32,265 nucleotides of DNA from Bacteroidales bacterium (lineage in GTDB: Bacteria > Bacteroidota > Bacteroidia > Bacteroidales > CAIWKO01). Under the pieces are notes generated by a model. That model worked only from the letters and a program-made list of their open reading frames with translations. It did not search any database and was not told the DNA's origin. The translations under genes were made by a program, and so were the position numbers. Below, one piece after another: positions 1 to 29,052 of the stretch. How positions within the stretch are numbered: position 1 is the stretch's first letter; each line of letters starts with the position of its first letter. The stretch covers positions 1 to 32,265 of the forward strand of contig JAGNBV010000026.1 in NCBI GenBank assembly GCA_018004645.1. Reading direction: 5' to 3'.

Positions 1-3000
1 CACAAGTCGAAAAAGAAGAGCTTTCGCTCATTACATGCGCTGAATAATAGCAGTTTGACACAGTTGCGTTTTGCCACATATATCCTACTATACCGCCTGC
101 ATAAGAGGGGCACTCAGAACTATACATATTATAATAACCAGAAGTGCCTATCACAGTAGCTGAAGAATGGCTGTTTGAAATTGCATCTTCAGAAACACCC
201 GCTATGCCACCTACACAAGATTGTCCGGAACCAGCAGTACCATTAACACATAGGCATTGTATCAACCCTGCAGAATTGCAGTTTGACACGGTACCATTTG
301 AATAATTATATCCCACAATCCCACCAGCAAATACACCACCTTCGTCACGTAAATAAATATCCATATAGCTAATACAAACATTATTTATAGATCCGTTAGA
401 GCAACCAAATAAACCCACGTATTTAATATTGGTATTATAATTAAGATTGTTCGCGTATATTTTTAGGCCGGTTATTATTTTACCATTACCGTCAAAGTTC
501 CCTTTGAACTGGTTGGTTGGTGTTCCAATGGGTGTCCAACCCACACCTGTTTGATAACCCGAAAGGTCAATGTTGTTGGCAAGTTTGTAATATACTCCAG
601 CATTGGCGTAAGGGGCAGTACCATTGTTTACCCAAGTTGCCAATTGTGCAAGTTCCGCCGCAGTTGTGATCAGGTAAGGGTTTCCTGCAGTACCTGGCAA
701 TGCAGAGAAAATCGCGGTATACGAAATATCTGCATTTACTGTCACCGTTCTTGGATTAGAAGTATTTCCATCGTTCCATTGGGTAAAGTAATAACCCGTG
801 TGTGGTGTTGCAGATATTATTCCCTGGAAATTGTTGCTACAAGTTGGAAATTGCGCAACAGCAACTGTTCCATACGATACATCATTTGCTAAAACTGTAA
901 TTAACGGAATGTGTTCAAAAACTGCAGTATAAGTAATATTTGAATTTACATTTACCGTTCTTGGATTAGTAGTATTTCCATCGTTCCATTGGTAAAAGCA
1001 ATAACCAGTGTTTGGAGTTGCGGAAAAAACAGCCTGATTGTCGGTACAATTGGGTTGAGTGGTAATTTCAACAAAACCAAATTGATTATCATTACTTTCA
1101 ACTACTAAGATTACGTCAAAAATTGGATTTTCGACAGAAATATTCGAAAAAAGGTTTGTCCAGTCAGTTGAGTTTTGATATAAATATAAATAACCACAAG
1201 TAACAAATACAGGAGTTGCTGCTGGAACATTTGTAAAAGCATTTGTTGCTATTGCCGGTGGGTTTGAAGCATCTGAATAGATTTTTTCCATTCCGGTACA
1301 GCCATAAAATGCGCATGTTGCAACATTCGTAACACTATTTCCAAAAGTTAAGCCTTTCACTGCGGTACCAAACAGATATGATGTCGTATTCAAGTAACCG
1401 CTTGAAAGATTTGGCGTAATATTTCTTCCATAATAAACTGTATCTATCGGACAATTATAAAAACTTCCATAATTATATTGTACTGAATTATAAGTGTAAT
1501 TAACACATATGCTTAAATCCGTACCTGCATCTAAAACAGTTAGATTATGTAATGAAGTACAACTTTGAAAAGCTTTTAGTCCAATTGTAGTTACAGAGCT
1601 TGGTACTATTAACTCAGGAATACTTGAACATCCATAAAAAGCAGAATTATTAATTGTTGTAACAGCGCTTGGTAATGAAAGTGGCGTTAATTGGGTACAG
1701 CCATAAAATGCGCATGTTGCAACATTTGTAACGCTATTCCCAAAAGTTAAGCCTTTCACTGCTGTGCCAAACAGATATGATGTCGTATTCAAGTTACCGC
1801 TTGAAAGATTTGGTGTAATATTTCTTCCATAATAAACTGTATCTATCGGACAATTATAAAAACTTCCATAATAATTTGGCGTTGTGCCAGACATTGTATT
1901 TACATATATGCTTAAACTTGAACTCCCATCTGAAATAGTAAGCTTATGTAAAGAGCTACAGCCCTGAAAAGCACTCGATCCTATTGATGTAACAGCACCC
2001 GGTATTATTAACTCAGGAATACTTGAACATCCATAAAAAGCAGAATTATTAATTGTTGTAACAGCGCTTGGTAATGAAAGTGGCGTTAATTGGGTACATC
2101 CATAAAATGCGCATGTTGCAACATTTGTAACGCTATTCCCAAAAGTCAAGCCTTTCACGACTGTGCCAAACAATACAGAAATTGATGTCAATGATCCTGT
2201 TGAATATGTTGGTGTAATATTCCTTCCATAGTAAACTGTATCTATTGGACAATTATAAAAACTTCCATAATAATATGGCGTTGTGCCAGACATTGTATTT
2301 ACATATATGCTTAAACTTGAACTCCCATCTGAAATAGTAAGCTTATGTAAAGAGCTACAGCCTTGAAAAGCACTTTGTCCGATTGTTGTAACAGAACCCG
2401 GTATTATTAACTCAGGGATGCTTGAACATCCGTAAAAAGCATAATCGTAAATTGTTGTTACAGCACTTGGTAGTATTAATTCAGGGATACCTGTACATCC
2501 GTAAAAAGCATAATAGTTAATAGTTGTAATTGCGTTTGGCAATGAAAGTGGCGTTAATTGAGTACAACCATAAAATGCATATCGTGCTACATTTGTAACG
2601 CTATTCCCAAAAGTTAAGCTCTTTACGGCAGTACCAAACATTGCTGATGTTGATGTATATGATCCCCCTGAAATACTTGGTGCTATATTTCTTCCATAAT
2701 AAACAGTATCTATCGGGCAATTACGGAAACTTCCATCTGTATAGGTGCTTGTATTAACATATATGTTTAAACTTGAACTTCCATCTGAAATAGTAAGCTT
2801 ATGTAAAGAGCTACAGTTCTGAAAAGCACTCGATCCTATTGATGTAACAGCACCCGGTATTATTAACTCAGGGATACTTGAACATCCGTAAAAAGCACAA
2901 TAGTCAATAGTTGTAACAGCGTTTGGTAATGAAAGTGGTGTTAATTGCGTACAATCATAAAATGCATATGGTGCAACATTTATAACGCTATTCCCAAATG

Positions 3001-5116
3001 TTAAGCCTTTCACGGCTGTGCCAAACAAAGCAGAAATTGATGTCAATGATCCTGTTGAATATGTTGGTGTAATATTCCTTCCATAGTAAACTGTATCTAT
3101 GGGGCAATTATAAAAACTCCCATAATAATATGGCGTTGAGCCAGACATTGTATTTACATATATGCTTAAATTTGAACTTGCACTGGAAATACTCAGCTTA
3201 TGTAAAGAGCTACAGCCTTGAAAAGCACTTTGTCCGATTGTTGTAACAGAACCCGGTATTATTAACTCAGGGATGCTTGAACATCCGTAAAAAGCATAAT
3301 AGTTAATAGTTGTAATTGCGTTTGGCAATGAAAGTGGCGTTAATAGAGTGCAACCATAAAATGCATATCGTGCAACATTTGTTACACTATTCCCAAAAGT
3401 TAAGCTATTTACCGCAGTGCCAAACAATGCAGAAATTGATGTCAATGATCCTATTGAATATGTTGGTGTAATATTCCTTCCATAGTAAATTGTATCTATT
3501 GGACAATTATAAAAACTTCCATAATAATTTGGCGTTGTGCCAGACATTGTATTTACATATATGCTTAAACTTGAACTCCCATCTGAAATAGTAAGCTTAT
3601 GTATAGAGCTGCAACCTTGGAAAGCACATGCTCCAATTGCTGTTACCGAACCAGTTATCGTTAATTCAGGAATACTTGAACATCCATAAAAAGCATAATT
3701 ACTAATTGTTGTAACAGCACTTGGTAATGAAAGTGGCGTTAATTGTGTACAACCATAAAATGCGTATTGTGCAACATTTGTAACGCTATTCCCAAACGTT
3801 AAGCCTTTCACGTCTGTGCCAAACAATGCAGAAATTGATGTCAATGATCCCGTTGAATATGTTGGTGTAATATTCCTTCCATAGTAAACTGTATCTATTG
3901 GACAATTATAAAAACTTCCATAATAATATGGCGTTGAGCCAGACATTGTATTTACATATATGCTTAAATTTGAACTCCCATCTGAAATAGTAAGCTTATT
4001 TATAGAGCTGCAACCTTGGAAAGCACATGCTCCAATTGCTGTTACCGAACCAGGTATCGTTAATTCAGGAATACCTGTACATCCGTAAAAAGCATAATCA
4101 TTGATGGTTGTAAAAGCGTTTGGAAATGAAAGTGGCATTAATTGCGTACAACCATAAAATGCGCATGTTGCAACATTTGTAACGCTATTCCCAAAAGTTA
4201 AGCTCTTTACGGCAGTACCAAACAAAGTAGAAACTGATGTATATGAGCCTGTTGAACTACTATGTGTAATATTTCTTCCAAAATAAATTGTATCTATGGG
4301 ACAATTATAAAAACTTCCGTATGTGGTGGTACTTTTATTAACATACATGGATAAACTTGAGCTTGCATCTGAAAAGGTAAGTTTATGCAAAGAGTTACAG
4401 CCTTGGAAAGCACATGCTCCAATTGCTGTTACCGAACCAGGTATCGTTAATTCTGGGATACCTGTACAACCGTAAAAAGCATAATCGTTAATAGCTGTAA
4501 AAGCGTTTGGAAATGAAAGTGTCATTAATGGCGTACAACCATAAAATGCATATCGTGCAACATTTGTAACGCTATTCCCAAAAGTTAAGCTATTTACGGC
4601 AGCACCAAACAATGCTGATGTTGATGTAAATGATCCTCCGGAACTACTTGGTGTAATATTTCTTCCACAATAAACAGTATCTATCGGGCAATTAAGGAAA
4701 CTTCCATTTGTGTATGTGCTTGTATTAACATATATACTTAAACTTGAACTCCCATCTGAAATAGTAAGCTTATGTAAAGAGCTGCAACCTTGGAAAGCAC
4801 TTATTCCAATTGCTGTTACTGAACCAGGTATCGTTAACTCAAGAATATTTGTACATCCATAAAAAGCATAATTACCAACAGAAGTAACCGAACTGCCAAT
4901 TTGTACACTTGTAATTTGCAACAAATAAGAATTCCAGGGCGGGTTGCTCGTAGTAGAATAATTTGTCATACTACCACTGCCGTCAATGGTCAACTTCCCG
5001 TCGTCAGTTAAAACCCAGGTTAAACTTGTTCCACAAGTTCCCTGATCAATAATATTTTGAGCAGTTGCAAAAAGTGCAGAAGAAAGAAAAACTGTAATGA
5101 GTAATAATTTTTTCAT
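1..5116 (-). CDS. Giant BspA-like LRR surface protein with InlB-B-like and GLUG repeats, 3' end outside window
   Basis: Reading leftwards from the ATG at 5116, the frame stays open to the window edge (1,705 codons visible, no stop), so the C-terminus is missing. Domain order: a signal peptide beginning MKKLLLITVF and ending near ATAQ; a short domain with GTCGTSLTWVL and DDGKLTIDGSG; a long BspA/TpLRR (LRR_5) region with repeats such as SVTNVATCAFYGC and IPELIIPGAVTSIG; a closing segment with SNPPAIATNAF and VTCGYLYLYQ; two 70-residue InlB-B/Flg_new-like repeats sharing QWNDGNT and NPRTV; then GLUG motifs (GGIVGY, GGIAGV, GGIVGY). I checked the frame at nine repeat anchors and both QWNDGN motifs; all agree. 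These families are typical of adhesins and host- or glycan-binding surface proteins. The binding partner is unknown, and any T9SS sorting domain would lie outside the window. The gene is visibly more AT-rich than the metabolic genes downstream. Confidence 0.93.
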   Translation of the reverse strand, partial: MKKLLLITVFLSSALFATAQNIIDQGTCGTSLTWVLTDDGKLTIDGSGSMTNYSTTSNPPWNSYLLQITSVQIGSSVTSVGNYAFYGCTNILELTIPGSVTAIGISAFQGCSSLHKLTISDGSSSLSIYVNTSTYTNGSFLNCPIDTVYCGRNITPSSSGGSFTSTSALFGAAVNSLTFGNSVTNVARYAFYGCTPLMTLSFPNAFTAINDYAFYGCTGIPELTIPGSVTAIGACAFQGCNSLHKLTFSDASSSLSMYVNKSTTTYGSFYNCPIDTIYFGRNITHSSSTGSYTSVSTLFGTAVKSLTFGNSVTNVATCAFYGCTQLMPLSFPNAFTTINDYAFYGCTGIPELTIPGSVTAIGACAFQGCSSINKLTISDGSSNLSIYVNTMSGSTPYYYGSFYNCPIDTVYYGRNITPTYSTGSLTSISALFGTDVKGLTFGNSVTNVAQYAFYGCTQLTPLSLPSAVTTISNYAFYGCSSIPELTITGSVTAIGACAFQGCSSIHKLTISDGSSSLSIYVNTMSGTTPNYYGSFYNCPIDTIYYGRNITPTYSIGSLTSISALFGTAVNSLTFGNSVTNVARYAFYGCTLLTPLSLPNAITTINYYAFYGCSSIPELIIPGSVTTIGQSAFQGCSSLHKLSISSASSNLSIYVNTMSGSTPYYYGSFYNCPIDTVYYGRNITPTYSTGSLTSISALFGTAVKGLTFGNSVINVAPYAFYDCTQLTPLSLPNAVTTIDYCAFYGCSSIPELIIPGAVTSIGSSAFQNCSSLHKLTISDGSSSLNIYVNTSTYTDGSFRNCPIDTVYYGRNIAPSISGGSYTSTSAMFGTAVKSLTFGNSVTNVARYAFYGCTQLTPLSLPNAITTINYYAFYGCTGIPELILPSAVTTIYDYAFYGCSSIPELIIPGSVTTIGQSAFQGCSSLHKLTISDGSSSLSIYVNTMSGTTPYYYGSFYNCPIDTVYYGRNITPTYSTGSLTSISVLFGTVVKGLTFGNSVTNVATCAFYGCTQLTPLSLPSAVTTINNSAFYGCSSIPELIIPGAVTSIGSSAFQGCSSLHKLTISDGSSSLSIYVNTMSGTTPNYYGSFYNCPIDTVYYGRNITPNLSSGNLNTTSYLFGTAVKGLTFGNSVTNVATCAFYGCTQLTPLSLPSAVTTINNSAFYGCSSIPELIVPSSVTTIGLKAFQSCTSLHNLTVLDAGTDLSICVNYTYNSVQYNYGSFYNCPIDTVYYGRNITPNLSSGYLNTTSYLFGTAVKGLTFGNSVTNVATCAFYGCTGMEKIYSDASNPPAIATNAFTNVPAATPVFVTCGYLYLYQNSTDWTNLFSNISVENPIFDVILVVESNDNQFGFVEITTQPNCTDNQAVFSATPNTGYCFYQWNDGNTTNPRTVNVNSNITYTAVFEHIPLITVLANDVSYGTVAVAQFPTCSNNFQGIISATPHTGYYFTQWNDGNTSNPRTVTVNADISYTAIFSALPGTAGNPYLITTAAELAQLATWVNNGTAPYANAGVYYKLANNIDLSGYQTGVGWTPIGTPTNQFKGNFDGNGKIITGLKIYANNLNYNTNIKYVGLFGCSNGSINNVCISYMDIYLRDEGGVFAGGIVGYNYSNGTVSNCNSAGLIQCLCVNGTAGSGQSCVGGIAGVSEDAISNSHSSATVIGTSGYYNMYSSECPSYAGGIVGYMWQNATVSNCYYSAHVMSESSSFSTC
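38..326 (-). repeat. GLUG motif repeats at the visible C-terminal end
   Basis: Three GG-I-x-G segments (GGIVGYN, GGIAGVS, GGIVGYM), each followed by a variable stretch and V/ISN-C/S, match the GLUG motif (PF07581) pattern seen in bacterial adhesins and proteases. A preceding segment with FKGNFDGNGKIITGL and YVGLFG is the usual lead-in. The array probably continues beyond position 1. Confidence 0.75.
716..1085 (-). repeat. Two InlB-B/Flg_new-like repeats in the surface protein
   Basis: Two copies spaced 210 nt (70 codons) apart share a core FSATP/ISATP..TGY....QWNDGNT..NPRTV.VN..I.YTA.F. The TGG codons of QWND start at 988 and 778 on the minus strand, both in the frame of the LRR protein. Repeats of this type form small beta-grasp modules in bacterial surface proteins and often act as spacers. 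Confidence 0.8.
1290..4925 (-). repeat. Nine-copy higher-order tandem repeat (mostly 399 bp) inside the LRR gene
   Basis: The codons for YGRNITP-type motifs recur with the GGA codon starting at 4666, 4279, 3880, 3481, 3082, 2695, 2227, 1828 and 1429. Spacings are 387, 399, 399, 399, 387, 468, 399 and 399 nt, all multiples of three. One 399-nt unit translates as five LRR-like segments of 23, 23, 35, 29 and 23 residues. The 387-nt units have a 31-residue version of the 35-residue segment. The 468-nt unit carries one extra 23-residue LRR (about 2400-2530). Stretches between copies are nearly identical at the DNA level, for example the segment encoding SDGSSSLSIYVNT. Recent duplication or gene conversion within the gene is the likely origin. 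Confidence 0.93.
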
Positions 5117-13236: not shown

Positions 13237-13363
13237 CAACAATAAAAAAACACAGTTAAATGCAAAAAAAGTACCTATAAACAGATATTGTAGTTAATTA
13301 TTTGTTAAAGCTTTAATAACAAATTTATGCATTTCTGTACGTGCAAAATTATTATTATTTTTG
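13237..13363. promoter_or_regulatory. Divergent promoter region between hutI and the first C10 protease
   Basis: On the plus strand TATTTTTG (13356-13363) matches the -7 consensus TAnnTTTG and would start transcription about 12 bp before the ATG at 13382. No clean -33 TTTG lies at the usual spacing. On the minus strand TATTGTTG (13244-13237) is one mismatch from the -7 consensus, 22 bp before the hutI ATG. The region is AT-rich and otherwise empty. Confidence 0.4.
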
Positions 13364-13381
13364 TTAAAATTTAATAGAAGA

Positions 13382-15451
13382 ATGAAACGTATATTTGTTA
13401 TTATCTCTGCACTACTTATTGTCAGTGCCACCGAGGCAAAAAAAGTTGACCTGCCGCTGGCTACAAAAACGGGAATTGCATATTATTACGAACATGCCGG
13501 CCAATTTACCACAGTGGATTTAAAAAACATGACTGTAAGCGATGTCTTTACGGAATGGGATGGTAATGTTCCATTGTATTACATAATAAATTTTTCATCC
13601 AAAGGCTTTGTCATAGTATCTGCCGATGATAATATCAGTCCGGTGATAGGATATTCCTACGAATCCAATCTTGATCCTGCAAAAATGCCTGTCAACCTGA
13701 AATGCTTTATGTCGGAGGTACGGCAGGAAATAAAAACCGCCTTAGCCGAAAATATAAAAGCGGATGAGTACATAAGCAGCCAGTGGGCTTATTATAGTAC
13801 AGCTGAAAACCTCACTGTGAAAAAAAGCAAGGCCGTAGTACCTTTGTTGCCCAGCAGTTGGAATCAGGATAAGTATTACAATCAGTTTTGTCCGGTAGCC
13901 GAAGGGGGCCCCGATGGCAAGGCTTATGCAGGATGCGTGGCCACTGCCATGTCGCAGGTCATGTATTATTACCGGTATCCCATAACCGGTCAGGGCACTC
14001 ACGGAGGTATAAATTTCGGCACAACAACCTATGACTGGGAAAATATGCTTGATGAACTCAGCAATTATAACGAAGCGGTAGCCGAACTGATGTATCACTG
14101 CGGTAAAGCCGTTGATATGGACTATGCCGCCGACGGCTCGGCAGCCAGTTCATCCTCATGCACCACGGCATTGAAAAATTATTTCAAATACGACAGCAAT
14201 GTTGACTTTGAGATGAAATACCTCTATTCTGCTTCCGGATGGACCAGCCTGCTGAAAGCCAACCTCGACGCCAAACACCCCATGATTTATTCCGGCTCGG
14301 ATGGTTTTGAAGGCGGACATGCATGGAACTGCGACGGGTACGATGCCAGTGATAATTTTCACATGAACTGGGGCTGGGGCGGCTACGCCAACGGATACTA
14401 TGCTACCAGCAACCTGGTGGCTGCTGGCAGCACTTTTAACAGCAATCAGGGGGTGGTCAGGAATATTTACCCTCCGGCCGCAAGTTATCCCTACAACTGT
14501 TCGGGCACCAAATCTATTACAGGAGTTACAGGCACTGTGGAAGACGGTAGCGGACCCAACGATTATGCAAACAACAAAGATTGCCTGTGGCTCATTGACC
14601 CTGCAGAAACCGTTTCAAGAATCATCCTGACCTTCACAGACTTCAGCACACAGGCTACCACCGATGTGGTCACCGTTTATGACGGCAGCACCACCGCTTC
14701 GCCGGTATTAGGCACTTACTCGGGTAGCACGCTGCCCTCCGCTGTTACATCTACAGGCCCACAAATGCTGATTCGCTTTCAGACCAATGCCAGCACCACC
14801 AACACAGGCTGGAGAGCCTCCTACCGATGCACTTTCCCTACCTATTGCTCCGGAATAACCAATTTAACTGCTGCCACCGGAACGATAAGCGACGGCAGCG
14901 CTGCTGAAAACTATACATACAACCACCTTTGCCGCTGGTTGATTGCTCCGGCCAACGCATCCTCCATAACCCTGACGTTCACGGCTTTCAATCTTGCCAC
15001 CAACGACAATGTAAAAATTTATGATCAGAATACCAACAACCTGCTGGATGATTATACAGGCACAAGCCTGCCAGGTGTGAAAACATACAATACCAGCAAG
15101 GTTCTGGTACTGTTTAAATCCGATGGCTACCTCAATGCACAGGGTTTTAACCTTAATTACACGTCATCCAGTCAACTCGGCATCGAAGACAATGGCGGCC
15201 CGGGCATGATGAATATCTATCCGAATCCCGCCAACAGCTTCCTGAATGTGCAGTTTACCCTTGACGAAGCGCAGGATGTCAATATTGAACTGTGTTCGAT
15301 GACTGGTATGGCAATCTTCAGAGAAGGAAAAAGCCACTTCTCCGGAGAGTATTTCAACACCATCAATACCTCCGGCCTCAGCCAGGGCGTTTATCTGCTA
15401 AGGATCACCGGCGAAAAGCTATCTGCATGTAAAAAAGTTATTATTGAATAA
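13382..15451 (+). CDS. C10 family (streptopain-like) cysteine protease with two CUB-like domains and T9SS sorting domain (copy 1)
   Basis: About 689 residues from the ATG at 13382; a TTG 21 bp upstream is in frame, but the signal peptide (MKRIFVIISALLIVSATEA) starts at the ATG. Domain order: Spi-like prodomain (about 20-130, with FVIVSADDNISPVIGYS); C10 catalytic domain with nucleophile Cys185 in YAGCVATAMSQVMYYY and His313 in GGHAWNCDGY, then FHMNWGWGGYANGYY; two CUB-like beta domains (about 370-480 and 485-595, each starting with a Cys and EDGSG or SDGSA followed by DCLWLI or LCRWLI); and a T9SS type A sorting domain (IYPNPANSFLNVQF ... GLSQGVYLLRI). It would be exported as a zymogen, pass the outer membrane by T9SS and be anchored or released. 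SpeB and interpain A belong to this family. First of three tandem paralogues. Confidence 0.95.
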   Translation: MKRIFVIISALLIVSATEAKKVDLPLATKTGIAYYYEHAGQFTTVDLKNMTVSDVFTEWDGNVPLYYIINFSSKGFVIVSADDNISPVIGYSYESNLDPAKMPVNLKCFMSEVRQEIKTALAENIKADEYISSQWAYYSTAENLTVKKSKAVVPLLPSSWNQDKYYNQFCPVAEGGPDGKAYAGCVATAMSQVMYYYRYPITGQGTHGGINFGTTTYDWENMLDELSNYNEAVAELMYHCGKAVDMDYAADGSAASSSSCTTALKNYFKYDSNVDFEMKYLYSASGWTSLLKANLDAKHPMIYSGSDGFEGGHAWNCDGYDASDNFHMNWGWGGYANGYYATSNLVAAGSTFNSNQGVVRNIYPPAASYPYNCSGTKSITGVTGTVEDGSGPNDYANNKDCLWLIDPAETVSRIILTFTDFSTQATTDVVTVYDGSTTASPVLGTYSGSTLPSAVTSTGPQMLIRFQTNASTTNTGWRASYRCTFPTYCSGITNLTAATGTISDGSAAENYTYNHLCRWLIAPANASSITLTFTAFNLATNDNVKIYDQNTNNLLDDYTGTSLPGVKTYNTSKVLVLFKSDGYLNAQGFNLNYTSSSQLGIEDNGGPGMMNIYPNPANSFLNVQFTLDEAQDVNIELCSMTGMAIFREGKSHFSGEYFNTINTSGLSQGVYLLRITGEKLSACKKVIIE

Positions 15452-15461
15452 TAGCGCTTTT

Positions 15462-17594
15462 ATGCAAAAAAAACTCATTGCCATAGTCTGCTGCATACTG
15501 ATCCAAAGTGTTGCTTTTTCAAAAAACATCAGCCAGCAACAGGCTATACTCGCCGGCAAAAATTTCTTTTATGAAAGGTTAAGCCTTGTTTCTTCCATAG
15601 ATTATAAAACTCTTGAAACAGAAAGCGTCTTTCCCAGAACCGTTGATGACCAAATTCTGTTTTACACCATTACCTTTAAAAATAAAGGGTTCGTGGTAGT
15701 TTCGTCCAACGATATTTTCCGGCCGGTACTGTGTTATGTCTTCGACAGCCGTTATGATATGCAAAACCTGCCTCCTGCCTTCGTCAGGTGGATGGAAGAT
15801 TATGAAAAACAGATGCTTTATGTATTACAAAACCATCCCCTGCAAAATACTTCCGTTGCCGCTGAATGGGACAGGCTGCTCACAGCCGCTCCCCAACAGT
15901 TAATTATGAGCAAAGAAACTACAGCCGTTCCTCCCCTGCTGAAAACTACCTGGAACCAGGACAAATATTATAATAATTTTTGTCCTCCTGCTGCCGGCGG
16001 CCCCGACGGTCGTGCTTACGCAGGTTGTGTGCCCACAGCCATGGGACAGATCATGAATTATTACCGGCATCCTGTTACAGGCATCGGTTCATATGTGTAC
16101 AATGACACTGTTGGCCCTTTAGTGTATGATTCGCTGGCAGCAGATTTTGGCAATACGGTGTATCGCTGGGATCAGATGCCATTGGCTGTTACCGAACGAC
16201 AGAACGATTCTGCCGTAGCAAAACTGCTTTACCACCTTGGAGTTTCTGTTAATCTGAATTACGATTCTTCCGGTTCAGGAATGTACAACCACAAAGCAGC
16301 TTATGCCCTGCGCACTTATTTTGGCTATGCTCCCGATTGTCAATACATTTTCAGGGATACGGCTACGCATACTAATTGGAAACAACTGATATTGAACCAT
16401 CTGAACGCCAAAAAGCCATTGTATTATGCAGGGTGGGCAGATACTATCAATGTTTCAGGGCATGCTTTTGTGTGCGACGGCTATCAGGACACCAGTTACT
16501 TTCATTTCAACTGGGGCTGGGGCGGATCCGCTGACGGCTATTTTCTGCTTGACAACCTGACTCCGGGAGGTTCTGACTTTACATTGGACCACGAACTTAT
16601 CATCAACTTTTATCCCGATACAGCATCGGCCTACCACCATCCGTGTAATAACATTACCACCCTGACAAAGACCAAGGGTACCTTCTCTGACGGCAGCGGA
16701 CCCCTGCATAATTATCAGGACAATGCCGACTGCCTCTGGATAATTGAACCCGCCGACTCAATTATCAACATCAAACTGAGCTTTTTGGAATTTGACACCG
16801 AACAGGATTCCGACATCGTGATTGTATATAAAGGCAATAATACCTCCGGGCCTGTATTGGGAACATTTACCGGCAGCACGCTGCCTCAGCAGATAACTGC
16901 CACCGGAAAAGCACTTTGCGTGCGTTTTATTTCAAACAACAGCGTTACTTCTTCCGGCTTTCTGGCCTCATACACATGCACACTGCCTGTATATTGCACC
17001 GTTGCCATTGTTGACCTCACTGCCGCCGCAGGAACCTTTGAGGATGGCAGCGGCACCTATCTGTATCATCCCAACCAGTTTTGCCGCTGGCGCATCAAAC
17101 CGGCCGGCGCCACCGCGATAACCCTGCATTTCAACGCATTTGACATAACTCCGGGCGATTATGTCCGTGTTACTGATCTGGAAGACAACACCTTAATCGC
17201 AGAGCTCACGGGTAGTGTTATTCCGGATGATATCATTTGTAATTCAGGACAAATATTGGTACAGCTCAAAACCTTTGACAAAGTGATGGCTCAGGGTTTT
17301 TCTATTTCCTACTACAATTCCAGCAACCTGAACGAAATACCTCACACGGAATTTTCAGTCTCTCCCAACCCTGCCAAAGACCTGCTGACACTCACATTCC
17401 AAAACGGCCAGCAAGAGGAGTATGCGCTGAAAATTTTCTCGGTAGAAGGCAGGCTGCTTTTTGAAAAAGCATTCCGCCTGTCGCCCGGCCAACAAAATCA
17501 AGTTATCGATGTATCTATGCTCCAGCCGGGGTTTTACCTGTTACACATCGCGTCGGGCAACGTGAACAGCACTAAAAAAATCATTATCGAATAA
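15462..17594 (+). CDS. C10 family cysteine protease with CUB-like and T9SS sorting domains (copy 2)
   Basis: 710 residues from the ATG at 15462, 10 bp after copy 1, so almost surely in the same transcript. Signal peptide MQKKLIAIVCCILIQSVAFS. The order repeats copy 1: Spi-like prodomain (GFVVVSSNDIFRPVLCYV), catalytic Cys189 in YAGCVPTAMGQIMNYY, His334 in SGHAFVCDGY, FHFNWGWGGSADGYF, two CUB-like domains (EDGSGTYLYHPNQFCRWRI in the second), and a C-terminal T9SS domain (SVSPNPAKDLLTLTF ... QPGFYLLHI). The catalytic domain has an insertion relative to copy 1 around YNDTVGPLVYDSLAADFG. The active-site residues are intact. The Pro after CV (CVATAM in the others, CVPTAM here) is a small distinction next to the nucleophile that might affect substrate choice. 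Confidence 0.95.
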   Translation: MQKKLIAIVCCILIQSVAFSKNISQQQAILAGKNFFYERLSLVSSIDYKTLETESVFPRTVDDQILFYTITFKNKGFVVVSSNDIFRPVLCYVFDSRYDMQNLPPAFVRWMEDYEKQMLYVLQNHPLQNTSVAAEWDRLLTAAPQQLIMSKETTAVPPLLKTTWNQDKYYNNFCPPAAGGPDGRAYAGCVPTAMGQIMNYYRHPVTGIGSYVYNDTVGPLVYDSLAADFGNTVYRWDQMPLAVTERQNDSAVAKLLYHLGVSVNLNYDSSGSGMYNHKAAYALRTYFGYAPDCQYIFRDTATHTNWKQLILNHLNAKKPLYYAGWADTINVSGHAFVCDGYQDTSYFHFNWGWGGSADGYFLLDNLTPGGSDFTLDHELIINFYPDTASAYHHPCNNITTLTKTKGTFSDGSGPLHNYQDNADCLWIIEPADSIINIKLSFLEFDTEQDSDIVIVYKGNNTSGPVLGTFTGSTLPQQITATGKALCVRFISNNSVTSSGFLASYTCTLPVYCTVAIVDLTAAAGTFEDGSGTYLYHPNQFCRWRIKPAGATAITLHFNAFDITPGDYVRVTDLEDNTLIAELTGSVIPDDIICNSGQILVQLKTFDKVMAQGFSISYYNSSNLNEIPHTEFSVSPNPAKDLLTLTFQNGQQEEYALKIFSVEGRLLFEKAFRLSPGQQNQVIDVSMLQPGFYLLHIASGNVNSTKKIIIE

Positions 17595-17602
17595 TATTAT
17601 TT

Positions 17603-19705
17603 ATGAAGAAAATACACATATATTTTTCCCTGATAGGTCTTTTTCTTGCAAACATATCGCTGACTTTTGCCGAAAAAATTGACGTAAAAACGGCACAAAC
17701 CCTCGCCACTAATTTTTATTATGAAAAGTGCCTGTTATTTGGTTATGATTTAAAACAACCGGAAGAGCTTACGCTGAGCTTCACGAAAACAAAAAACAGC
17801 GAGGAAATGTATTATATTTTTTCTTCACAAAACGGCTATATCATTGTAGCTGCCGAAGATGATGCATACCCTGTGTTAGCCTACTCGTTTGAAGGGCCCT
17901 ACACGGGCAAAAATATTTCTCCCGAATTCGGCTATTGGATGAGTATTTATGAAGATCAAATAATACATATCCGCAAAAACTCGATGAAAGCCGATAAAAA
18001 AATTTCTGACACCTGGAATTTTTACCTTACGGATTTTATTTGCGATGAGCAACTGAAAAACGGCACCAAATCGGTAGCGCCCCTGCTCATGTCCACCTGG
18101 GATCAGGGAACCTATTACAACTACTTATGTCCTCCCGATCCTGCCGGCGCCGGTGGCCATGTCTATGCCGGATGTGTAGCTACCGCCATGGCGCAGGTAA
18201 TGTATTATTACAGATATCCTGTGCAAGGCACCGGTTCTCATGGATATTATTCAAATTATGGTTACCTGTCGGCCAATTTTGGAGCAACTACCTACCAATG
18301 GAATGAGATGCAAAACAATATCGGCGGCAAATTCAACTACAGCATGGCGCTCATACAGTTGCACTGCGGCATAGCCATCGACATGGATTACAGTCCCGAT
18401 GGGTCAGGAGCCAGTATGTACGATGCCGCCTCTGCCATGAAATCATATTTCGGTTATTCCGCTTCCACACAATTATATCGTAAAGATGATTACACCGAAA
18501 CCCAGTGGAAAAATATGCTGATTGACGACCTGGACAACAAAATGCCCATACAATATGCCGGCTATGGCGAAAGCGGGCATGCCTTTGTGTGCGACGGGTA
18601 TCAGGGCACCGACTTTTTTCATTTCAACTGGGGATGGAGCGGGTATTACAACGGCTATTTTTACCTGAACAACCTCAACCCGGGCTACACTTTCAGCAAC
18701 TGGCAGCAGGCCATCCTGAACTCTTACCCTGCCACCGCTTTTCCTCAGCAATGCAGCAACACCACACTGGTTCAGAGCACCTGCGGCACCGTGGAAGACG
18801 GCAGCAGCCCTGCGAATGATTATGAGAACAACAAAGACTGTATGTGGCTGATTGCGCCTACCGATCCCGTAGATTACATCAGGATTACATTTGAAAGGTT
18901 GAACACCGAAGCCGGCAATGACTTTATCACTATTTACGATGGAGAAACCACCAGTGACCCTGTGTTAGGTGTTTTTTCGGGCAGCACCATTCCATCTGAT
19001 GTTTTATCTACCGGCAACAAGGTACTGGTACGTTTTACCACCAACAGTTCGGTAGTGGCTGATGGCTGGCTGTTGACCTACAACGGAAAAATCACCAGTT
19101 TTTGCAGCGGAGTAACAGAATTGACAGCACCTTCGGGAGTGATTTCTGACGGAAGCGGTACCTATAACTATAATAACAGTACGCTGTGCCACTGGCGTAT
19201 CAGCCCTCCGGATGCCGGTACCATTTCCATCACGTTCAACAACCTGGATTTAGCGCAGGACAATGATTTTGTCAAAATTTATGATGACAATTCCGACACC
19301 GAACTGATGACTTTGCATGCCGGAGACCTGCCACCGACGTTTACCACATACACCGGAAAAGTACTGTTACTTTTTTTTACCAGCGTTATGGATAATGCCG
19401 GCGGATGGGAACTTTCCTACACCTCTGCCCCGCTTTCGGTGAGTGAAAACCCCGAAGCTTTTGTCAGCATAGCCCCCAACCCTGCTTCGGAATATGTCAA
19501 ATTACAGGCCTTTCTGCCGCAGGCAACAACAGTAGACCTTGCCATTTGCAATAATCTGGGCAGTGTTGTTTTATCAAGGCAATTATCATCAACCGATGGC
19601 CGCTTCGACGAGGCCGTGGATGTCAGTGATCTTTCGCAGGGAATTTATTTCCTGAAACTTGCTGCTGACTCATTTCAGCAAACGCAGAAGCTGATTATCC
19701 GTTAA
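17603..19705 (+). CDS. C10 family cysteine protease with CUB-like and T9SS sorting domains (copy 3)
   Basis: 700 residues, 8 bp after copy 2. Signal peptide beginning MKKIHIYFSLIGLF and ending LTFA. Spi-like prodomain (GYIIVAAEDDAYPVLAYSF), catalytic Cys191 in YAGCVATAMAQVMYYY, His326 in SGHAFVCDGYQGTDFFHFNW, then WGWSGYYNGYFYL. Two CUB-like domains follow (EDGSSPANDYENN and SDGSGTYNYNNSTLC openings), then a T9SS sorting domain (SIAPNPASEYVKLQAF ... LSQGIYFLKLA). Prodomains diverge more than catalytic cores among the three copies. This fits a gene triplication followed by specialisation. All three appear active on residue grounds. Confidence 0.95.
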   Translation: MKKIHIYFSLIGLFLANISLTFAEKIDVKTAQTLATNFYYEKCLLFGYDLKQPEELTLSFTKTKNSEEMYYIFSSQNGYIIVAAEDDAYPVLAYSFEGPYTGKNISPEFGYWMSIYEDQIIHIRKNSMKADKKISDTWNFYLTDFICDEQLKNGTKSVAPLLMSTWDQGTYYNYLCPPDPAGAGGHVYAGCVATAMAQVMYYYRYPVQGTGSHGYYSNYGYLSANFGATTYQWNEMQNNIGGKFNYSMALIQLHCGIAIDMDYSPDGSGASMYDAASAMKSYFGYSASTQLYRKDDYTETQWKNMLIDDLDNKMPIQYAGYGESGHAFVCDGYQGTDFFHFNWGWSGYYNGYFYLNNLNPGYTFSNWQQAILNSYPATAFPQQCSNTTLVQSTCGTVEDGSSPANDYENNKDCMWLIAPTDPVDYIRITFERLNTEAGNDFITIYDGETTSDPVLGVFSGSTIPSDVLSTGNKVLVRFTTNSSVVADGWLLTYNGKITSFCSGVTELTAPSGVISDGSGTYNYNNSTLCHWRISPPDAGTISITFNNLDLAQDNDFVKIYDDNSDTELMTLHAGDLPPTFTTYTGKVLLLFFTSVMDNAGGWELSYTSAPLSVSENPEAFVSIAPNPASEYVKLQAFLPQATTVDLAICNNLGSVVLSRQLSSTDGRFDEAVDVSDLSQGIYFLKLAADSFQQTQKLIIR

Positions 19706-24984: not shown

Positions 24985-26856
24985 ATGAAAAAAGACACTG
25001 CTCAAACCAAACTTTTTGATGAGTTTCCTCCCATAGACACCCAAATGTGGGAAGAAAAAATTCAGGCCGACCTGAAAGGCGCAGATTATGAAAAAAAACT
25101 TATCTGGAAGACCATAGAAGGCCTTAAAATAAAACCTTATTACCGGGCCGAACACACCGAAAACCTTTCGCATCTGCAGGCGCTACCCGGCGAATATCCT
25201 TTTGTTCGCGGCTACAGGGCAAACTCCAACGTATGGCGCATCCGCGAAGATATAGTAGTAACAGATGTTGCCAAAGCCAACGCCGACGCATTAAAAGCGA
25301 TTTCGAGAGGCGCCACCGCAATTACTTTCAAAGTGAAAGAGCTTGCCTACAGAGAAGAAATGGCTACCCTGCTGAAGGGCATCAACATGGAAGAAATTGC
25401 CGTACATTTCTTTTCATCGTTTTCCTATTCCCTGCTGGCCAATCTGCTGATTGAATATGTGAAAAACTCAGGTTTTAAGCCCGATAAAATCAAAGGCTCT
25501 TTCAACTTTGATTCCATAGGATATTACTTGCTGCATGGCGAATACTATAACAGCAAAGAAGACAACTTCAACGAAGCTGCCGCCCTGATAAAACAGATGA
25601 AGGCCAATCTACCGCAGTTCCGCATCATCAACGTCAACGGTGTTCATTTTATGAATGCAGGGGCTACCGCTGTTCAGGAACTGGCTTATGTGCTGGCTTC
25701 AGCCAACGAATACGCCGCCCAGATGAGCGACCGCAGCCTTGACATTGACGATGTTTTTGCCGGCATACAACTCACTTTCGGCATAGGTTCCAATTATTTC
25801 ATGGAAATAGCCAAACTTCGCGCCGCACGGTTGTTGTGGGCACGTTTGGCCGAACAATACAAACCCGCCCGGCCTGCCTCCCTCACCGTGGCTATACATG
25901 CATGCAGCGGCACCTGGAACAAATCGGTGTTCGATCCTTATGTAAACCTGCTGCGTCTGACTACCGAATGTATGTCGGCAGCCATAGGCGGAGCAAACGC
26001 CATTACCGTGCTGCCTTTTAATAATACCTATGCGGAAGCCGACGAATTCAGCGCACGTATTGCCCGTAACATCCAGATCATTTTAAAAGAAGAAGCTTAC
26101 CTCGACAAGGTCATCGACCCTGCTGCAGGCTCTTATTATCTAGAATCGCTTACCGATGAGCTGGCGCAATTATCATGGGAGTACTTTAAACGCATCGAAG
26201 AAAAAGGCGGTATGCTCACCATCATGGAGTCGGGAAGCCTGAAACAGGAAATCGAATATACCGCCGCCCAGCGAAACATGGATATCGCCATGCGCAAAAC
26301 TCCTGTGTTGGGAACCAACATCTTCCCCAACCTGAAGGAAACAATGCTTGATCAAATACAAATCAGCCGTGGTGCAGACGAACACCCTTACCTGAAATGC
26401 TACCGTGGTGCCGAAATGTTTGAATACATCCGGCTTTCCACCGAACAATTTGTAAAAAAAGGAAATAAGCGGCCGAAAGTTTTTCTGGCCACCTACGGCA
26501 ACCTGGCCATGCGAAAAGCAAGAGCCGGTTTTACCACCAACTTTTTCGGCTGTGCAGGTTACGAAATCAGCGATGAATTTGTGATGAAAGATATTGCCGC
26601 CACGGTGCAGGACATAAAAAACTATGATGCCAACATCGTGGTCATCTGCAGCTCCGATGAGGAATATGCCCAGCAGGCGGGCGAACTGGTCAGCGCGGTG
26701 AAACAATTCAACCCACAGATTAAGGTTATTGTTGCCGGCTATCCCAAAGAGCTCACAGAACAATTAAAATCCGCAGGGGTGGACGATTTTATCCATGTAC
26801 GTGTCAATGTTGCAGAAACACTGGCCGGATACAACAAACTTTTCGGAATAAACTAA
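24985..26856 (+). CDS. mutA: Methylmalonyl-CoA mutase small (non-catalytic) subunit
   Basis: 623 residues, normal for the small subunit. It pairs with the catalytic subunit to interconvert succinyl-CoA and (R)-methylmalonyl-CoA in propionate formation or use. It shows the family barrel (for example NAGATAVQELAYVLASANEY, GIGSNYFMEIAKLRAARLLW, and RIARNIQIILKEEAYLDKVIDPAAGSYYLE). The C-terminal flavodoxin-like domain has FLATYGNLAMRKARAGFTTN where the catalytic subunit has the cobalamin-binding DxHxxG. The loss of that motif identifies it as the non-cobalamin-binding subunit. The catalytic subunit gene follows after 51 bp. No mutase chaperone (meaB) or epimerase gene is next to them. Confidence 0.96.
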   Translation: MKKDTAQTKLFDEFPPIDTQMWEEKIQADLKGADYEKKLIWKTIEGLKIKPYYRAEHTENLSHLQALPGEYPFVRGYRANSNVWRIREDIVVTDVAKANADALKAISRGATAITFKVKELAYREEMATLLKGINMEEIAVHFFSSFSYSLLANLLIEYVKNSGFKPDKIKGSFNFDSIGYYLLHGEYYNSKEDNFNEAAALIKQMKANLPQFRIINVNGVHFMNAGATAVQELAYVLASANEYAAQMSDRSLDIDDVFAGIQLTFGIGSNYFMEIAKLRAARLLWARLAEQYKPARPASLTVAIHACSGTWNKSVFDPYVNLLRLTTECMSAAIGGANAITVLPFNNTYAEADEFSARIARNIQIILKEEAYLDKVIDPAAGSYYLESLTDELAQLSWEYFKRIEEKGGMLTIMESGSLKQEIEYTAAQRNMDIAMRKTPVLGTNIFPNLKETMLDQIQISRGADEHPYLKCYRGAEMFEYIRLSTEQFVKKGNKRPKVFLATYGNLAMRKARAGFTTNFFGCAGYEISDEFVMKDIAATVQDIKNYDANIVVICSSDEEYAQQAGELVSAVKQFNPQIKVIVAGYPKELTEQLKSAGVDDFIHVRVNVAETLAGYNKLFGIN

Positions 26857-26907
26857 CATAAACATATCATAAGCGTTATAAATCACCGATAGCTCAAAAT
26901 TAAAAAT

Positions 26908-29052
26908 ATGAGACCAGATTTTAAAAACATTGATTACAAGCCGGATTCAAAAACCAACACCAGCGGGACCACGTCAGACCCGTCCGGCGAAACTATGATT
27001 ACCCCGGAACTTATTCCGCTAAAACCTTTTTATACTGCCGCCGACCAGGCAGGTATGGAACATCTGAATTACGCGGCAGGTATCCCCCCCTACCTCAGAG
27101 GGCCTTATTCTACCATGTACGTGATGCAACCCTGGACTATCCGCCAGTATGCAGGATTTTCGACAGCCGAAGAGTCCAATGCTTTTTACCGCCGCAACCT
27201 TGCTGCCGGACAAAAAGGATTATCGGTGGCTTTTGACCTGGCCACCCACCGCGGCTACGACTCTGACCACGACCGCGTGGTGGGCGATGTGGGAAAAGCC
27301 GGTGTTGCCATTGATTCCATACTTGACATGAAGATATTGTTCGACAATATCCCCCTCGACAAAATGTCGGTATCCATGACCATGAACGGGGCGGTACTTC
27401 CCATCCTGGCTTTCTATATCGTGGCTGCCGAAGAGCAGGGTGTCTCCATGGAAAAACTTACCGGCACCATTCAAAACGACATCCTGAAAGAATTTATGGT
27501 GCGCAACACCTATATTTATCCGCCGCTGCCCTCGATGAAGATCATTGCCGATATTTTTGAATTTACTTCGAAAAATATGCCCAAATTCAATTCTATCAGC
27601 ATCAGCGGGTACCACATGCAGGAAGCCGGCGCCACCGCTGACATCGAACTGGCCTATACGCTTGCCGACGGGCTGGAATACCTGAGAGCAGGAGTCAATG
27701 CCGGCATGGATATTGACACTTTTGCTCCGCGTTTGTCATTTTTCTGGGGAATAGGCATGAACCACTTCATGGAAATAGCCAAAATGAGGGCTGCCCGTAT
27801 GTTGTGGGCAAAACTGGTCAACACGTTCAATCCCAAAAACCCCAAATCGCTGGCCTTGCGCACGCACAGCCAAACATCGGGCTGGAGCCTCACCGAACAA
27901 GATCCTTTTAACAATGTGGCCCGTACCTGTGTTGAAGCGCTGGGAGCGGCCCTGGGGCATACCCAGTCGTTGCACACCAACGCCCTGGATGAAGCCATCG
28001 CCCTGCCAACCGACTTTTCGGCACGTATCGCCAGAAATACACAGATATACCTTCAGGAAGAAACCAACATTTGCAAAGTGGTTGACCCCTGGGGCGGTTC
28101 ATATTATGTGGAATACCTTACCCATGAACTGGCGCACAAAGCATGGGAACACATCCAGGAAATTGAACACTTGGGCGGAATGGCCAAAGCCATAGAAACA
28201 GGTATCCCCAAAATGCGTATCGAAGAAGCTTCGGCACGTAAGCAGGCCCGCATCGACTCGGGAAAGGACACCATCGTCGGTGTGAACAAATACCGTCTGG
28301 AAAAAGAGGCCCCGATAGAAACCCTGGAAATAGACAATACCGCAGTGCGCGAAGCTCAGCTAAAACGGTTGGAACAACTCAGGGCAAACCGCGACAATGA
28401 AAAAGTGCAACAATGTTTAGAAAAAATAACCCAGGCATGTGAAAGCGGCAACGGAAACCTTCTCGAACTCGCCGTTGATGCCGCGCGCCAGAGAGCCTCT
28501 CTGGGCGAGATATCCTTTGCATGCGAAAAAGTTTTCGGGAGGTACAAAGCTGTGATAAGATCAATTTCTGGCGTTTATTCATCCGAATCGGTGAATGACG
28601 ATACCTACAAAAAAGCCTGTGAACTAGCCGACCAGTTTGCATCGCTCGAAGGCCGCCGCCCCAGGATCATGATAGCCAAAATGGGCCAGGATGGCCACGA
28701 CCGAGGCGCCAAAGTAGTAGCCACCGGATATGCCGACATAGGCTTTGACGTGGACATCGGCCCCTTATTCCAGACACCCGCCGAAGCGGCCAAACAAGCC
28801 GTGGAAAACGACGTGCACATACTAGGCGTTTCCAGTCTGGCTGCCGGCCACAAAACGCTGGTGCCGCAGGTAATTGAAGAACTGAAAAAGCTGGGACGTG
28901 AAGACATCATGGTCATTGTTGGAGGCGTTATCCCTCCGCAGGATTATGATTTTCTTTACAAGGCCGGAGCCATCGCCATTTTTGGACCGGGAACCAAAAT
29001 TCCTGAAGCCGCCATCAAAATACTGGAGATATTAATAGAAGCCAGGAAATAA
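26908..29052 (+). CDS. mutB: Methylmalonyl-CoA mutase large (catalytic, B12-binding) subunit
   Basis: 714 residues. The adenosylcobalamin-dependent catalytic subunit. Substrate-site blocks: [60 protein letters not shown], and [19 protein letters not shown]. The C-terminal cobalamin domain has the complete signature DGHDRG (Asp595, His597 as lower axial ligand) in [20 protein letters not shown], then [14 protein letters not shown] and [15 protein letters not shown]. All expected elements are intact. It is co-oriented with mutA and probably in one transcript. Confidence 0.98.

Follow-up and report, generated by a model that had tools for sequence, protein, structure and literature searches.

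The locus and its gene

The window, i.e. the whole stretch of DNA analysed here (32,265 nucleotides), is the entire contig C107 of a 3.29-Mb Bacteroidales genome that consists of 213 contigs. A gene for a BspA-like leucine-rich repeat (LRR) protein, putatively located on the cell surface, occupies one end of it on the minus strand, where the frame is open throughout from position 5116 down to base 2 and then exits the contig end (Table 1). Elsewhere in the window there are three consecutive genes of the Peptidase C10 family (13361-19705, plus strand), in all of which a Spi inhibitor prodomain is combined with CUB domains and a sorting domain for type IX secretion, as well as two adjacent methylmalonyl-CoA mutase genes (24985-29052, plus strand), of which the second has a strong and the first a weak match to the B12-binding domain.

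The cut end of the LRR gene is overlapped by contig C78 over 249 nt with 1 mismatch, and C78 carries the same frame onward for 803 codons, which gives a full-length protein of about 2,425 aa with C78 counted (1705 - 83 + 803); the join was made from this sequence overlap rather than from reads. The mismatch, found between positions 1-249 of the window and positions 1-249 of C78 (L011), is a single base difference that makes a codon either Met or Val, and it suggests that there may be strain variation in the source sample.

Table 1. Positions of the LRR gene, its repeat units and its other features in the window
Feature	Coordinates	Strand	Remarks
Gene for BspA-like LRR protein (putative surface protein)	2..5116	(-)	open frame, 1705 aa here, 3' end cut by contig end
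Probable signal peptide MKKLLLITVFLSSALFATAQ	5057..5116	(-)	read by eye from translation
Unit 0, shortened first super-unit	4598..4918	(-)	without one 23-residue LRR
Super-unit 1	4211..4597	(-)	129 aa
Super-unit 2	3812..4210	(-)	133 aa
Super-unit 3	3413..3811	(-)	133 aa
Super-unit 4	3014..3412	(-)	133 aa
Super-unit 5	2627..3013	(-)	129 aa
Super-unit 6	2159..2626	(-)	156 aa, extra 23-residue LRR
Super-unit 7	1760..2158	(-)	133 aa
Super-unit 8	1361..1759	(-)	133 aa, most divergent of the units
Terminal single LRR	1292..1360	(-)	start of ninth unit
Long-segment pair (35+29 residues), unit 7	1760..1951	(-)	
Remaining long-segment pairs	1361-1552, 2159-2350, 2627-2806, 3014-3205, 3413-3604, 3812-4003, 4211-4390, 4598-4777	(-)	
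Predicted loop, 35-residue segment, unit 7	1862..1897	(-)	unit positions 88-99; low pLDDT at equivalent positions in units 2-4; pN/pS 0.88
Predicted loop, 29-residue segment, unit 7	1772..1813	(-)	unit positions 116-129; low pLDDT at equivalent positions in units 2-4; pN/pS 0.77
First InlB B-repeat-like domain (Flg_new_2)	908..1111	(-)	approximate boundaries, placed by reading; Flg_new_2 passed in two stretches
Second InlB B-repeat-like domain (PF18998)	701..898	(-)	Pfam match
GLUG motif (PF07581)	149..226	(-)	Pfam match; more GLUG motifs on C78

The initial annotation had recognised a BspA-like LRR protein, and the profile search agrees: LRR_5 (PF13306) matches in nine stretches, every one of them above the cut-off (E=1.6e-182, 597.3 bits vs a cut-off of 27.7). 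No further LRR_5 gene was detected by profile search in the source genome. Weak Pfam matches (Thioredoxin_3, PTPLA, MucB_RseB_C) and NCBIfam matches far under their cut-offs (HupY, Gli349) were discarded as artefacts of the repeat composition. In the protein, InlB-B-like, GLUG and Ig-like regions come after the BspA-type solenoid, and the frame on C78 adds GLUG, He_PIG, a borderline dockerin match and a C-terminal sorting domain (Por_Secre_tail). This sorting domain lies at the end of the frame (PF18962, 34.7 bits; TIGR04183, 32.8 bits), and its assignment to the gene rests on the 249-nt overlap with one mismatch. The genome as a whole holds a gene of the SprA family (SprA_N, 568 bits) and 150 matches to the sorting domain, so that genes of the type IX secretion system (T9SS) are present. 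The protein would be exported by Sec and then by T9SS. A second sorting-domain match is found on C78 (2448-2633, plus strand), in an open frame of 81 codons directly behind the LRR gene, which ends at 2411; the match may be what is left of a cargo gene that was duplicated or truncated.

Anatomy of the repeat array and its predicted fold

The motif NCPIDT serves as an anchor for the repeat, as it occurs nine times in the frame at spacings of 129, 133, 133, 133, 129, 156, 133 and 133 residues (387, 399 or 468 nt in the DNA). The underlying super-unit contains 133 residues (23+23+23+35+29), i.e. three standard LRRs and two long segments, and this layout is seen in the units themselves, in line with the unequal LRR segments that had been proposed. 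A period of 399 nt was called independently by TRF, and its scores (1559 and 2931) exclude a chance origin. The initial annotation counted nine copies of 133 residues; the nine anchors and the period stand, but if the units are cut at the first standard LRR, the array really comprises 8 complete super-units (1361-4597), a shortened unit 0 and a single closing LRR. Its reading of the length variants was accurate: the 156-residue unit 6 (468 nt) contains one additional 23-residue LRR, and the 387-nt spacing reflects the loss of four codons, which units 0, 1 and 5 lack in the loop of their 35-residue segment.

Repeats of 23-25 residues form a recognised class of LRRs, the TpLRRs (PMC2946307), and BspA-like families are widespread (PMC2843621). 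The protein shares with them (LRR_5, PF13306) the 23-residue LRRs with the AFxxC signature, the predicted solenoid fold and a probable N-terminal secretion signal. Three of the five segments in each unit match the TpLRR consensus LxxLxLxxxLxxIgxxAFxx(C/N)xx, whereas the 35- and 29-residue segments break the length rule; unlike in other BspA-like proteins, two of five turns are long here, and the five together return regularly as a block of 133 residues. The locus is, in other words, a regular array in a known kind of protein, the BspA-type LRR.

The fold was predicted with AlphaFold for units 2-4 (pLDDT 84.5, pTM 0.85), from a shallow alignment of 11 rows, eight of which came from the window itself. 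In the model each long segment makes one LRR turn, in which the standard strand is followed by a second short strand and then by a loop of low confidence (unit positions ~88-99 and ~117-128). Periodic bulges had been suggested for the long segments, and the model would support this, as the LRR turns that they form have extra strands and loops of low confidence. The best fold matches in the PDB are BspA-type structures, 4fs7 (E=3e-9) and 4gt6, and also 4cp6 and 4h09, with TM-scores of at most 0.46-0.48 between the model and the solved structures; no solved chain matched the long-segment pair by sequence. An alignment-free prediction of units 6-8 reached a pLDDT of 64 and was set aside.

Divergence and exchange between the units

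The DNA of the units had been described as nearly identical, and active change of copy number had been proposed on this ground. We find otherwise. Pairs of units are 74-95% identical at the nucleotide and 63-93% at the amino acid level, no two are identical, and the longest exact repeat in the array is 106 nt. Synonymous divergence (dS) is 0.11-0.63 in most pairs, namely those without the divergent last unit (this run had two units merged, and we prefer the regional pN/pS values given below). Such silent divergence, together with the lack of an identical pair, argues that the last whole-unit duplications were not recent, and active copy-number change is not supported in the one genome of the species that was compared. 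The repeat region (1291-4925) has a G+C content of 35%, as compared to 44% in the whole window.

Separate segments of one unit have different closest partner units. A PHI-type statistic was 0.339 vs 0.495 +/- 0.018 in permuted data, and none of 1000 permutations gave so low a value. Several shared tracts with global p values of 0.000-0.004 were revealed by a GENECONV-like run test, third codon positions included. The units are mosaics and therefore pieces have been exchanged within the array; this exchange is statistically clear, even though gene conversion and unequal crossing-over are indistinguishable as its route.

These findings bear on the possibility that the gene encodes a size- or phase-variable adhesin, in which the number of super-units changes rapidly by recombination. 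The tandem units, which are in frame and include one that has an additional LRR and some that lack four codons, would agree with it, as would the clear mosaicism with exact tracts of up to 106 nt shared between units and the reported differences among Flavobacterium psychrophilum isolates in the copy number of tandem LRR genes (PMC8400371). However, the units are not near-identical in either overall identity or dS, and the array, like the long-segment pair, is absent from all three genomes of the same genus (3/3), one of which has a different LRR_5-type protein. With one genome of the species compared, we regard rapid variation as unlikely.

A more technical explanation is that an assembly artefact accounts in part for the number of units or for the mosaic pattern, i.e. 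a collapsed or chimeric repeat put together from mixed strains. The contig does end within the gene, the mismatch in the C78 overlap hints at mixed strains, and a short-read assembler would also be expected to yield an array without exact repeats longer than 106 nt. The units are nevertheless diverged enough for reads of 150 bases to be placed, the frame is open throughout, and mosaicism extends across most units rather than being confined to one junction; an artefact of this kind therefore seems to us rather improbable.

Constraint, relatives and a putative role

For the eight units taken together pN/pS is 0.37, and its distribution along the unit is uneven. The lowest values are found in the FYNCP (0.07) and IDTVYYGRNIT (0.14) cores, the three cores FYNCP, IDTVYYGRNIT and FGT spanning 0.07-0.14; standard LRRs have values of 0.23-0.43, and everything outside the loops falls between 0.07 and 0.49. 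The solenoid scaffold is thus kept under purifying selection. The highest values are those of the loops, 0.88 in the 35-residue and 0.77 in the 29-residue segment, but the model and the alignment were both consulted when the limits of the loops were chosen, and so the contrast between loop and core is descriptive. High loop values fit with exposed loops and fall short of diversifying selection; as they are below 1, relaxed constraint explains them as well as a role in binding does.

It is in this context that the array might be regarded as an inert spacer, in which repeats amplified by slippage during replication or recombination only lengthen a stalk and the function resides in the C-terminal domains. 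The nearly unconstrained loops speak for this, as do the several different domains that follow the solenoid. On the other hand, scaffold and core residues are conserved in all units and the motif of the long pair is conserved across other genomes, although this weighs little given that the scaffold of a spacer would also be constrained. We give the spacer a low probability.

The conservation just mentioned comes from a profile of the long-segment pair, run on 393 sampled genomes of the window's own order. It matched in 14 of the 393, the source genome included, and CPLxTLYLGRN-type motifs were present in 11 of the 12 regions read, which came from eight of the matching genomes. The long segments, presented as unusual in the initial annotation, thus have counterparts, as a matching CP[IL]xTxYxGRN pair is found in 13 other genomes of the order and in Bacteroidia bacterium MS499-82 (L023, BNTU01000006.1). 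The latter encodes a BspA-like protein that has the pair three times at irregular spacing and also bears a sorting domain. In G715 (L072), the pair and one LRR are together repeated in tandem, as a super-repeat with a unit of 246 nt, 3.1 copies and 85% matches. These two loci, as well as G561, G651, G415 and others, resemble the window in that a matching pair is followed by a standard LRR. They differ in having mostly irregular spacing or a block of 81-82 residues, which holds one standard LRR vs three in the window unit, and fewer copies.

Wider searches gave little more. The pair profile matched only two genomes class-wide, one of them weakly. A strict DNA pattern found no copy outside the window, yet it recovered only one of the nine copies within it and is a weak negative, because it needs codons with T in second position (such as Leu or Phe) at sites that are Tyr or Cys in most copies. 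Among viral contigs no relative was found by profile, nor by a strict DNA pattern of the same kind, and phage and plasmid records gave general BspA-like LRR matches only (<60% identity). A thin search of the open-access literature returned no description of the 133-residue unit or the long pair. We take the pair of long LRR turns to be a recurring BspA-like element for which no name and no sequence relative of known structure were found.

It is useful to compare the array with other higher-order LRR arrangements. LRR super-motifs such as STT, known from the TLR7 family and small proteoglycans (PMC1899181), also show a higher-order period made of unequal LRRs; they are however vertebrate, about 80 residues long, present in three copies and built from other LRR classes. 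The tandem LRR genes of F. psychrophilum (PMC8400371) likewise encode LRR proteins of Bacteroidota that are proposed to lie at the cell surface and vary in number. There it is the number of whole LRR genes that varies between isolates, whereas here the repeats lie inside one gene of one genome.

On balance we consider it fairly likely that the gene encodes a T9SS-exported surface protein whose BspA-type solenoid grew by block duplication and exchange within the array and now offers a multivalent binding surface. The N-terminal half would be a long solenoid that arose when a block of five turns (three standard ones of 23 residues and the two long ones with loops) was duplicated in tandem; at a later stage, pieces would have been swapped between blocks through gene conversion or unequal crossing-over. 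Loops would then emerge at a fixed period from a scaffold held by purifying selection, and such an arrangement would most likely bind a glycan, a polymer or another cell in a multivalent manner. The product is probably a surface binding protein, for which the role of an adhesin is plausible. A more specific version, in which the two long turns make up one conserved ligand-binding module placed every five turns, and the variable loops of a multivalent, T9SS-exported display are reshuffled by recombination inside the array while the scaffold is kept, is in our opinion a long shot. If the loops do bind ligands, their display at regular intervals would account for the retention of such an array; otherwise it may be an example of ordinary repeat-protein evolution. 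The pair of long turns has joined in a higher-order duplication in two or more genomes of the order.
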